64,000 bases of DNA from Rhodoferax sp. (lineage in GTDB: Bacteria; Pseudomonadota; Gammaproteobacteria; Burkholderiales; Burkholderiaceae_C): the NCBI RefSeq assembly GCF_023700745.1, contig NZ_JAMPYG010000009.1:1-64000 (forward strand), read 5' to 3'. Position numbers and translations under genes: made by a program. Below, piece after piece: positions 59,232 through 64,000 of this stretch (within the stretch, counting starts at the first letter, position 1; each line of letters begins with the position of its first letter). Below the pieces are notes generated by a model. It had not been told where the DNA came from. It was given only the letters and a program-made list of their open reading frames with translations, and searched no databases.

Positions 59232-59483
59232 CTACCCCATACGGGCCGCCAAGTAGTCCAGCACGTCGTTGAATGACACCAGCCGGGCGTAATCTGCTTC
59301 GGGGATGGTCACCCCGAAGCGTTCATGCAGGCTGACCAGAAAATTGAGCCAGTCCATCGAATCCAGGTCCACCTGGCTGCGCAGTGGCCGCGCTGCATCC
59401 AGCGCCTCAGGCGCCAGTTCCGGTGCAATGGCACGCAGCAAGTCCAGCACCGTGGCAACAAGCGCTTCCCGGTCAGTGCTCAT
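59232..59483 (-). CDS. Acyl carrier protein in a 2-oxoacid dehydrogenase operon
   Basis: A stand-alone 83-residue carrier protein. The 4'-phosphopantetheine site is Ser42 in VDLDSMDWLNFL, with Met after Ser where most ACPs have Leu. The helices ALVATVLDLLRAIAPEL and FGVTIPEADYARLVSFNDV flank it as in the ACP fold. The ATG at 59483 overlaps the E2 stop by four bases, so it is translated with the dehydrogenase subunits. No fatty-acid synthase gene is nearby. Its acyl cargo is unknown; acetyl or another acyl group from the E2 is the natural suggestion. Confidence 0.88.
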   Translation of the reverse strand: MSTDREALVATVLDLLRAIAPELAPEALDAARPLRSQVDLDSMDWLNFLVSLHERFGVTIPEADYARLVSFNDVLDYLAARMG

Positions 59484-60511
59484 GCGACAAACTCCTCGCA
59501 GCAGTCCAGCGCTTGCGGTTGCTGCAACAGCGCACGCAGCTCGGCCAGAAACAGCGCGCCCTGATGCCCATCCGAGACCCGATGGTCGGCGGCCAGCGTG
59601 GCGCACAACACCGGCATGGCGCAGACCCCACCGTCGTCGCGCACCCAGGGCCTTGTTGCAATGCCGCCAAAACCCACCAGCGCCACCTGCGGCGGGTAGA
59701 TCACGCCAAACACGCTCTCGATGGCCTGGTCGCCCAGATTGGTGATGGTGATGGTGGGGTCGGACATCTCGGAACTGCGCAGCGAACCGGCGCGGGCGCG
59801 CCTGACCAGGTCGGCCAGATCGCGCATCAGCTGGTCCAGTGGTTTGCGCTGCACATCATGAATGGCCGGTGCGACCAGGCCGCCACCGCGCAGCGAAATG
59901 GCCACCCCGGCATGTACGGCGGCACTCGGACGGAACTGGCCATCGGCATAAAAACCATTGAGCTCTGGCCGGTTTTTGAGGGCCACCGCCACCGCCTTGA
60001 ACAGTAACACAGCAGGCAATAGGCGCTCGGCGATGGGCCGACCCGCGTTGCGCTGCTGCAACCAGTCCAGGGCGACCTGCAAAGGGATGGTTTCGGCCAG
60101 GTAGTAGTGCGGAATGTCACGTTTGGATCGGCTCATGGCCGCGGCAATGGCCTGGCGAATCTCTTTTTGCCGGTCCGGCGCAGCGGGTACCTGCGCCTGG
60201 ACGGCGATGGTGGGGGCTTGATCGCCCGGTGTGGCAGGCGCCTTTGGCATGGCCGGAGCCGCTGCGGGCACTTCACCCGGCGCAAGCAGCGTGGCCAGCA
60301 CCGTGCCCACCGGCACCTTGTCGCCTACTGGCACCAGCAGTTCCTGCACCACGCCGTCCTGCCAGATTTCGACATCAATGGCCGCCTTGGAGGTATCGAC
60401 CACCGCCACCACCTGGCCGCGCTGGACCCGGTCACCCGGCTGCACATGCCAGGCCAGCAACTTGCCCTCGGTCATGTCCGCACCGAGCGACGGCAACTTG
60501 AATTCGATCAT
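59480..60511 (-). CDS. Lipoyl acyltransferase E2 without a subunit-binding domain
   Basis: Dihydrolipoamide acyltransferase of a 2-oxoacid or acetoin dehydrogenase complex, 343 residues. One lipoyl domain (1-80) has lipoyl-Lys42 in [12 protein letters not shown]. An Ala/Pro linker (about 80-115) leads straight into the catalytic domain ([20 protein letters not shown] near 118), ending with [11 protein letters not shown] (His310, Asp314). The usual peripheral subunit-binding domain, which docks E3 or E1, is not recognisable in the linker. It overlaps the E1 beta and ACP genes by four bases each. Confidence 0.9.
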
Positions 60512-61494: not shown

Positions 61495-62516
61495 GCGGCT
61501 CCTTGTGCTGTCACCACGTCGCGCAGCAGGTCGGCCACCGGTTCCCAGCTGCCGCCTTCGGCAAAAGCCACGGCGCTGTCGACCTCGGCCTGCGCGGCGG
61601 CATCAAGGGCCAGGAACTCGTCCTCATTGAGGTCGCCCTGCGCTTTCAGGCGCGCGCTGAAAGTGTGGATCGGGCCACGGGTCTTCCAGGCCTGCACTTC
61701 CTGTTTGTCGCGGTAGAGCTCGGGGTCGAACATCGAATGGGCACGAAAACGAAAGGTCTTGAACTCCATGAACACCGGACGGCTGAGTTGCAGCACCTGC
61801 TGGGCCGCGCCCAGCACGGCCTTGTGCACCGCCACCACGTCCATGCCATCGACCGGCACCGTGGCCATGCCATAGGACGCCGCCTTGATACACAGATCGG
61901 TCTGCGATTCGGAACGCGCCAGCGCCGTGCCCATCGCATATAAATTGTTTTCACAGCAAAACAGCACCGGCAACTGCCACAGTGCGGCCAGGTTCATGGC
62001 TTCATGGAAAGCGCCCTCGGCCACCGCACCCTCACCAAAAAAACAGGCGGTCAGGGCACTGCGGCCGCTGAGCTTGTCGGCCAGTGCCAGCCCGGCTGCC
62101 AGTGGCAGGCCACCGCCGACGATGGCCTGGCCGCCATAAAAGCGGCTGGCGCGGTCGAACAGGTGCATGGAGCCGCCATGGCCGCGCGAACAGCCCTCCT
62201 GCTTGCCAAACATCTCGGCCATGATGGCGTTCATGCCAACACCGCGCAGCAGCGCATGGCCATGCTCGCGGTAGGTGGCCACCACGTTGTCCTGTGGCTG
62301 CAAGGCCCGCAGGGCACCGGTGGCCACCGCTTCCTCGCCAATGTAGAGGTGCAAAAAGCCGCGTATCTTTTGCTGCCCGTACAGCTCGATCGTTTTTTCT
62401 TCCATGCGCCGGATACGCAGCATGTCGGCCAGCGTGGCCAGCGCAAAGGCCTTGTCCCAGGGCACCGGGCCGGTCGGGGGCGCGGGCAGTTCAGCCAGAT
62501 TGGTGTTGGTGTTCAT
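61491..62516 (-). CDS. TPP-dependent dehydrogenase E1 alpha subunit
   Basis: Alpha chain of the E1 component, which decarboxylates a 2-oxo acid or cleaves acetoin on thiamine diphosphate. The 341 residues have [25 protein letters not shown] N-terminal helices near 36, [16 protein letters not shown] near 103, and the TPP-metal motif GEGAVAEG (161-168) with CENN at 188-191. The first acidic residue is Glu where most have Asp. The phosphorylation-loop region [11 protein letters not shown] is near 250. It overlaps the ligase stop and the E1 beta start. Acetoin and pyruvate dehydrogenases cannot be separated by sequence alone here. Confidence 0.92.
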
Positions 62517-64000
62517 CCACCGGCCTCCAGTGTCGAGGTGTCGCCCTCGGGCAGCCCGAGTTCGCGCGCCTTCAGCAGGCGGCGCATGATCTTGCCGCTA
62601 CGGGTACGCGGCAACACCGCAAGAAAGGCAATTTCCTTGGGGGCCACCGCAGCACCCAGGCGCCTGCGCGCATGAGCCATGATGTCAAGACGCAACGGCT
62701 CGGAGGGTTCAAAGCCGGCTTTGAGCGAGACAAAGGCCTTCACCACTTCGCCCAGTAGCGGGTCAGGTTTGCCAATGACCCCGGCCTCGGCCACAGCGGG
62801 GTGTTCCATCAGCACACTCTCCACTTCGAACGGACCGATCAGGTGGCCGGCCGACTTGATGACGTCGTCGGCACGGCCAACAAACCAGAAATAGCCGTCT
62901 TCGTCGACGCGCGCCAAGTCACCGCTCAGGTACAGCTCGCCGGCAAAGCACTTCTGGTAACGCAGTTCATTGTTGAGGTAGCCACGAAACATCGACGGCC
63001 AGCCGCGCTTTAAAGCCAGTTCACCTTCGACGTTGGGGGTCTCAATGATGCGTACACGGGGCAACTCGCCTTCGGCCTCCAGGTGCTCGACGATACAGGC
63101 GTCAATGCCGGGCAACGGGCGCCCCATCGAGCCGGGCTTGATGTCAAACGCCGGGGTGTTGGCAATCATGATGCCACCGGTCTCGGTCTGCCACCAGTTG
63201 TCGTGAATCGGCAAGCCCAGCACCTCCTGGCCCCACCAGACGGCCTCGGGGTTCAGCGGCTCACCCACGCTGGCAATGAAGCGCAGGCAGGGGAAGCGTT
63301 GACGCTGCGCCAGTTCGGGGCCGGCTTTCATCAACATGCGGATCGCCGTGGGCGCGGTGTACCAGACGCTCACATGTTCCTGCGCCAGCAGCGTGTACCA
63401 GCGCTGGGCATCGAACTCCTCGCAGTCCACCAGCGTGGTCACCCCTTGCAGCAGCGGCGCAATGATGCCGTAACTGGTGCCGGTCACCCAGCCCGGGTCG
63501 GCGGTGCACCAGTAGCGGTCTTGCGGGTGCAGGTCAAGTGCGTAACGTGCACTGGCCTCATGCGCCACCACCGCGCCATGCACATGCAGCGCGCCCTTGG
63601 GTGTGCCGGTGGTACCGCTGGTGAAAAACAGCAAGGCAGGGTCGTCCTCGCTGGTCTCAACGGTACTGAAACTGTCGCAAGCGCTGGCCATCAAGGTGGC
63701 CAGGTCGAGCGTGTCGGGTTCGTTGGTGACGCCGCCGTCCTGCGCCACCAGCAGCACATGGCGCAGGCTGGGCAGCTGGTGGCGCAGCGGGCGCACCTTG
63801 CGCTGGTAGAGGGTGTCTGTGGTCAACAGTACCTGACCCAGGCCGAGTTGAATACGGGTGGCGATCGGCTCCGGGCCAAAGGCCGAAAACAACGGTGTGA
63901 CCACGGTGCCATTCTTGAGCGCACCGAGCAGACCCACGTAGAGTTCCGGAATGCGTCCGGCCAGCAAAAACAAGCGGTCACCCAGGCCCACGCCCAGACT
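62513..64000 (-). CDS. acsA: Acetyl-CoA synthetase, AMP-forming (5' part cut by the window)
   Basis: ANL-superfamily ligase that activates acetate or a short acyl acid to the CoA ester. The gene runs off the right edge, so its start is not seen; at least 495 residues are present. Motifs in order are [15 protein letters not shown] (A3), [26 protein letters not shown] (A5), [20 protein letters not shown] (A7), [17 protein letters not shown] (A8) and the C-terminal [10 protein letters not shown] (A10) with the regulatory lysine. It resembles AcsA-type acetate ligases. It is the first visible gene of the operon and overlaps E1 alpha by four bases. Confidence 0.9.

Follow-up and report, generated by a model that had tools for sequence, protein, structure and literature searches.

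The 64,000-nucleotide stretch of Rhodoferax sp. DNA analysed here (contig NZ_JAMPYG010000009.1, positions 1 to 64,000; henceforth the window) holds, at its right edge, an operon for an acetate ligase, the E1 and E2 components of a 2-oxoacid dehydrogenase and a dedicated acyl carrier protein (ACP). All five genes lie on the minus strand and follow each other in this order from the edge. The first encodes an AMP-forming acetate ligase of the AcsA type, with an AMP-binding and a C-terminal domain, of which the window contains the 3' part (62513..64000). On the same contig, the gene extends to a TTG at 64309 or a likely ATG at 64291, and the complete frame has 598 codons. It is followed by a thiamine diphosphate (ThDP) dependent E1 alpha of the pyruvate dehydrogenase (PDH) type with an E1_dh domain (61491..62516), an E1 beta with transketolase domains (60508..61494), and an E2 (59480..60511) in which Pfam and fold searches identify one lipoyl domain (K42), a short linker and a 2-oxoacid_dh acyltransferase domain with the DHR..DG motif. 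The last gene (59232..59483) encodes an ACP of 83 residues with a predicted phosphopantetheine site at Ser42 and a PP-binding match (PF00550) over cut-off. The E1 alpha, E1 beta, E2 and ACP genes start with ATG. The four-base overlaps of these five leftward genes, claimed in a preliminary description of the DNA, are borne out by the coordinates at all four junctions (62513-62516, 61491-61494, 60508-60511 and 59480-59483).

The gene identities proposed in that description also hold, judged by Pfam domains and, for three of the proteins, by curated cut-offs. The ligase scores 895.9 bits with the acetate--CoA ligase model PRK04319 of NCBIfam (cut-off 729), E1 alpha 432.5 bits with the PDH E1-alpha model TIGR03182 (cut-off 393.9), and E1 beta 402.4 bits with the PDH E1-beta model PRK09212 (cut-off 321). 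The nearest PDB relative of the ligase is 9g79. None of the listed E2 models gives E2 a score over its cut-off, the best equivalog reaching 190 against 445 bits. An acetoin dehydrogenase identity was rejected, as the acetoin E2 model aligned to E2 residues 4-113 only.

Related loci were collected by a scan of one-per-species genomes, which yielded 254 E2 relatives. The best 80 were kept and screened for the remaining four proteins. The complete set of five genes is present in 71 of these 80 loci, and the genes that are present have the same order and lie on one strand in every locus, so that the arrangement is not due to chance. Eight of the other nine loci are cut off by the end of the contig before the missing genes would be reached; in the ninth (L058), a search of the 518 bases that remain downstream of E2 gave no ACP. 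An ACP of the same family adjoins E2 in 79 of the 80 loci, from at least four phyla, and complete cassettes occur in Pseudomonadota, Actinomycetota, Nitrospirota and Acidobacteriota. It is also plasmid-borne, for example on a conjugative plasmid of Sinorhizobium fredii. With starts picked by script, the four-base overlap is the commonest junction (50/72, 57/73, 43/74 and 30/79, in gene order). E1 alpha and E1 beta share one frame in L096, L103, L121 and L068.

Since the 80 loci had been chosen by E2 similarity, 369 genomes of the class were also sampled, with possible species overlap with the 80, and five E2 candidates were scored per genome. The E2 profile matched 15 times, 12 times at 389 bits or more (the window's own copy included) and three times at 248-262 bits. 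The family ACP lies beside all 12 cassette-type E2s, again with the window's own included, and beside none of the three next-best E2s. Absence of the ACP next to homologous E1/E2 operons, which was to refute the inference of the preliminary description, was looked for in both collections, and did not refute it: the ACP was present in 79/80 loci and next to 12/12 E2s. The ACP profile matched 23 times in the same genomes: 12 matches accompany E2, three the ligase only, three stand alone (L116, L117 and L119) and five are weak (42-45 bits). Among 398 genomes of the phylum, two of them common to the class sample, E2 lies beside 14 of 15 ACP matches, the other being a remnant. For 296 genomes of an actinobacterial class the figure is 18 of 23, with two remnants and three weak matches (about 50 bits) without E2. 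Two of these three adjoin frames that look ketosynthase-like by eye. The cassette is sporadic, occurring in about 3-6% of the genomes sampled, but in most cases it is complete.

The ACP also occurs with the ligase in the absence of the dehydrogenase components. In L114, L115 and L118, a full-length ligase directly precedes the family ACP, and neither E1 nor E2 lies between them or in their vicinity. The paired ligases, from the genomes G104 and G228 (one genus) and G323, are 59-63% identical to the window ligase, and the gap to the ACP is 18 bases in G104 and G228 and about 190 in G323. A cassette-type E2 was not found in these three genomes, where the best E2s score at most 157 bits; the scores of cassette E2s start at about 390. 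In a tree of 81 rows built by a quick method, the paired ligases nest inside the cassette ligase clade (Shimodaira-Hasegawa-like approximate likelihood ratio support 93), and loss of E1 and E2 with retention of ligase and ACP is therefore the simplest reading. Through these pairs, the ACP is tied not to E2 alone but also to the ligase. Near the ACP in L114 (3784-6480) and L119 (1416-4100), there is also a large protein with an ADP-forming CoA-ligase/ATP-grasp part and a GNAT domain of the lysine acetyltransferase type, which could be a regulator of the ligase.

Apparent fusions of the ACP with its partners did not withstand closer inspection. In the wider stretch L160, the ligase match of the apparent ligase-ACP fusion in L146 stops at about residue 400 of 598, and the frame continues into the ACP; the joined frame is a deletion remnant or an assembly join. 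The E2-ACP fusion of L136 is an E2 tail remnant beside an ACP (L161). Further remnants are found in L151/L166 (an E2 tail, 84 bits) and L100 (E1 beta and E2 pieces before the ACP). L161 and L167 show one whole and one decayed cassette in a single genome (G558). In L100, from plasmid pDK2 of Rhodococcus sp. DK17, the decayed cassette is flanked by Hsp20 genes and by a response regulator gene, with an encapsulin and a Dyp peroxidase encoded nearby.

The ACP is a family of its own, apart from curated ACP models: it falls under the cut-offs of all eight such models that it matches (best 32.7 bits against 70). Its signature is IAPE…DLDSMDWLNF. A20, P21, D39, D41 and S42 are invariant in 80 sequences, R35 is conserved in 79, Y65 in 77 and W45 in 68 (F in 10), and a recognition-helix glutamate of the host's AcpP is replaced by asparagine in 74. 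The predicted structure is confident (predicted local distance difference test, pLDDT, 91), and its fold matches are solved ACPs. The host genome (3.2 Mb in 35 contigs, 94.6% complete) contains two PP-binding matches only, the AcpP of fatty acid synthase type and the operon ACP. None of the three other E2s of the host can therefore have an ACP beside it, and for the same reason no nonribosomal peptide synthetase (NRPS) or polyketide synthase (PKS) is detectable in this genome. Across 70 loci, with shared descent not removed, the E2-ACP distance-matrix correlation is the highest of the ten gene pairs (0.845), and the ligase-ACP correlation is among the lower ones (0.699).

Residues expected to matter for catalysis are conserved throughout. 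Y82-R83 and H260-S261-M262 of E1 alpha (73 aligned rows), A129-Q130-H131 of E1 beta (74 rows), and K573 and the NWWQTETG motif of the ligase (67 aligned cassette ligases) are all invariant. Taking the roles of these residues to be the usual ones, with K573 presumably the catalytic lysine and a Trp presumably lining the acetate pocket, the pattern would fit pyruvate as the E1 substrate and acetate as the ligase substrate. In E2, the lipoyl K42 is present in 76/76 rows, and H310 and D314 in 81/81. The predicted E2 structure (pLDDT 80) has E2 cores as fold matches. The hydrophobic C-terminus of E2, the part that joins trimers, is lost, with 58 of 81 rows stopping within two residues of L335; the shortened protein may form a trimer whose CoA side is open. 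A loss of the coenzyme A (CoA) site, considered on account of the change from canonical IA.RL to IAAAM, was dropped, because that arginine is likewise missing (N) from the host's own E2 in L089. The peripheral subunit-binding domain occurs in 17 of the 19 cassette E2s that were scanned, and has no Pfam match in the window E2 or in L008. By eye, the linkers of the window copy, L008 and L023 contain no such domain. A general reduction of this domain to one helix in cassette E2s was an artefact of window-copy numbering, given the 17 of 19.

Many copies of the cassette, not all, have universal stress protein, Hsp20, CBS-domain and DosR-type genes as neighbours. Nitroreductase, pfkB, phosphoribosyltransferase (PRTase)-erythromycin esterase and two-component genes are further neighbour families. 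Families were defined by similarity clusters, with one representative each checked. Of eleven stress-type markers, at least one is found in the flanks of 51 of the 80 loci and at least two in 32. Loci with at least one stress neighbour include those of Streptomyces fungicidicus, Methylocystis rosea (one universal stress protein), Leisingera, Rhodococcus, Cupriavidus and Burkholderia savannae. In 20 of the 80 genomes, picked for breadth, the loci contain 14 universal stress protein frames, each confirmed by Pfam, in 0.42 Mb, which is roughly ten times the number expected from the 301 matches in the genomes as a whole (about 93.5 Mb), though only 7 of the 20 loci carry any such protein. Two genes similar to 3-ketoacyl-ACP synthase III lie in the same Rhodococcus island as a cassette (L097:1207-3169), and are possible users of acetyl-ACP.

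We propose that the cassette is a stress- or low-oxygen-associated acetyl module, in which the E1-E2 complex and the ligase share the dedicated ACP as acetyl carrier, the most likely of the readings considered, though with no better than even odds. E1 alpha and beta would decarboxylate pyruvate on ThDP and reductively acetylate the lipoyl arm of E2, and from E2 the acetyl group would move on to the ACP, on its phosphopantetheine arm, in place of CoA or as well. The AMP-forming ligase would join the same ACP (or CoA) to free acetate via acetyl-AMP. The complex would be served by the housekeeping E3 and phosphopantetheinyl transferase. We infer every chemical step, the direction of the ligase and, from the E1 and ligase families and their residues, the acetyl load. 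If the proposal is correct, the conversion of pyruvate to an acetyl thioester, a central step of metabolism, exists in a second form that uses a carrier protein of its own, and a function is found for genes whose present annotations are those of a spare PDH, of an acetate ligase and of an ACP. The question of the acceptor is testable with five proteins.

In the model of the preliminary description, the ACP is loaded by E2 only, and an ordinary acetate-CoA ligase salvages leaked acetate as acetyl-CoA. The adjacency of E2 and ACP and the top rank of their distance correlation agree with this model, as does the ligase score over the acetate--CoA ligase cut-off. The ligase-ACP pairs in three genomes without E1 and E2 do not, and we regard E2-only loading as unlikely. 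Recapture of free acid may be part of what the ligase does, but it would not be solely a salvage enzyme, as the ACP is its only cassette partner in these three genomes.

The operon might also encode an ordinary, acetyl-CoA-forming PDH variant, with the ACP in a structural or regulatory role rather than as acyl acceptor. The family-typical catalytic residues of E1, E2 and the ligase are consistent with this, and ACPs do serve as structural subunits elsewhere, as in the complex I chains returned by the fold search. However, the predicted phosphopantetheine serine is conserved in 80/80 sequences, and the ACP is retained with the ligase alone; we consider this alternative improbable.

The genes around the operon bear on a further alternative. 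A CBS-domain gene (contig 64306-64809, beyond the window) ends 14 bases before the likely ATG of the ligase at 64291 and probably shares a transcript with it. Because of this short distance, the operon may hold six genes. A simple scan found no promoter-like site directly before the CBS gene. A CBS-domain gene is also found upstream of the ligase in L008, L009, L010 and L056, and its product is a possible nucleotide sensor for the operon. A link by analogy with AcuB and AcsA was set aside, and remains only a lead: according to the available part of the source, AcuB inhibits the deacetylase AcuC and does not act directly on AcsA (PMC13121692). Beyond the CBS gene there are genes for a DEAD/DEAH helicase and for pyruvate phosphate dikinase, the latter at a distance of about 9 kb from the ligase. 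On the other side, the operon converges with a gene for an Hsp20 small heat-shock protein (58790..59218, plus strand; PF00011 over cut-off). Next come, on the minus strand and with all named domains over Pfam cut-offs, a PAS histidine kinase (57418..58527; PAS, HisKA_3, HATPase_c), a LuxR-type response regulator (56771..57430; Response_reg, GerE) and a Crp/Fnr-family regulator (55844..56737; HTH_Crp_2, cNMP_binding), which scores 111 bits with the Fnr model, under its cut-off of 228. A PAS/GGDEF protein is encoded at 53551-55449, and a cluster that looks alike by eye is found near the cassette in the loci of eight relatives.

In such a setting, the ligase could run in reverse. Under energy stress, acetyl-ACP made by E1 and E2 would be converted, with AMP and pyrophosphate, to acetate and ATP, in a fermentation fed by pyrophosphate. 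An AMP-forming ligase running backwards has a precedent in a syntroph. The stress-type neighbourhoods of many copies are compatible with such a role, as are the CBS gene upstream and the dikinase gene about 9 kb away in the host, the phosphoenolpyruvate synthase genes that the islands of Rhodococcus and Leisingera contain, and the fact that the ligase is, besides E1 and E2, the only constant enzyme of the cassette. However, none of the neighbour clusters that were identified is a dikinase (most clusters are not annotated), and we consider such a reversal quite improbable. Supply of a glycolyl-type extender unit for a natural product, as by QncN/L/M and NapB/D, is very improbable: the E1/E1/E2/ACP gene content does match sclQ1-4, but the host has no detectable NRPS or PKS and just two PP-binding matches, E1 alpha scores over the PDH cut-off, and the acetate ligase is constant in the cassette. 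Returning to the shared-carrier module, one may extend it to a widespread acetyl-ACP currency of dormant or oxygen-starved cells, in which the ACP would be charged from pyruvate by the PDH variant and exchanged with acetate by the ligase, the latter possibly reversed to yield ATP from AMP and pyrophosphate, and the flux kept apart from the CoA pool. We regard this extension as unlikely.

Several observations weigh against the shared-carrier module. E2 keeps an ordinary transacylase fold and the catalytic residues, and is compatible with CoA as acceptor. A conserved consumer of acetyl-ACP was not recognised beside the cassette, where most neighbour clusters are not annotated. The ligase-ACP pairs amount to three loci from two lineages, and an E2 could have escaped detection in G228 and G323, whose assemblies are split into 510 and 350 contigs, respectively; the ligase-ACP distance correlation of about 0.70 is in the lower part of the ranking. 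Some family ACPs lie in stretches where neither the E1 and E2 nor the ligase of a cassette is found (L116:8082-8345, L117:7740-8003, L119:4715-5278 and L101:12004-12147, the last being a Rhodococcus plasmid record with the ACP alone). The window E2 is devoid of the subunit-binding domain, by which E1 and E3 would be expected to dock. With respect to the setting, 29 of the 80 loci, Rhodocyclales loci prominent among them, have none of the eleven stress markers in their flanks. Universal stress proteins were not found on the window's contig, and neither was an FNR-like box (at most one mismatch, the one box type searched) in the 20 kb scanned, the part upstream of the operon included. In view of these two negatives and of several Rhodocyclales copies without a stress setting, the low-oxygen function is only a lead.

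Transfer of a C2 unit from a lipoyl group to an ACP was reportedly described by Peng in 2012. The gene sets for quinocarcin (Qnc), naphthyridinomycin (NapB/NapD) and scleric acid (sclQ1-4) resemble the cassette in comprising ThDP-dependent E1 parts, a lipoyl E2 and a small ACP, and for QncN, QncL and QncM (a ThDP enzyme, an E1-beta/lipoyl-E2 fusion and an ACP) it has been shown that they make and attach a C2 unit (PMC6335953). As far as the accessible portion of this source goes, they differ from the cassette in having no acetate ligase, in belonging to antibiotic clusters and in using a ketose phosphate as the proposed donor; QncL fuses E1 beta and E2 domains that are encoded by separate genes in the cassette. 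The cassette E1, on the other hand, looks to be of the pyruvate type, and an NRPS was not detected in the host genome. The preliminary claim that no characterised pathway has this set was thus too strong, but the ligase and the stress setting are absent from the Qnc, Nap and scl sets as described in that portion (PMC6335953). The pepteridine locus of Photorhabdus (plu2792-2799) shares with the cassette an E1-like gene and an E2-like protein, there fused to a carrier domain; direct priming of the carrier domain from a 2-oxo acid by E1/E2, instead of CoA, has been proposed, with naphthyridinomycin cited as analogous, and E3 is not encoded (PMC5384830). Unlike the cassette, this locus has a fused condensation domain and pteridine genes, and a ligase is not mentioned in the available text (PMC5384830).

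The pyruvate dehydrogenase complex has E1 and E2 domains and catalytic residues in common with the cassette, which differs by its dedicated ACP and ligase, by the lack of a recognised E3 frame in the operon and by the loss of the subunit-binding domain in the window copy. In citrate lyase, an AMP-forming acetate:ACP ligase serves a dedicated carrier protein; this carrier and its partners are not known to be related to those of the cassette. The DosR regulon includes universal stress protein, Hsp20, CBS, nitroreductase, pfkB, PRTase-erythromycin esterase and two-component genes, families that also occur beside many of the cassettes, though not all. The lxa locus has been likened to the DosR regulon, in a paper whose available part does not mention the cassette (PMC6127331). 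No description of the cassette was found, going by titles and abstract beginnings, among the open-licence PubMed Central papers listed. The cassette appears to be of a known E1/E2/ACP kind, to which the ligase and the stress setting add new features.

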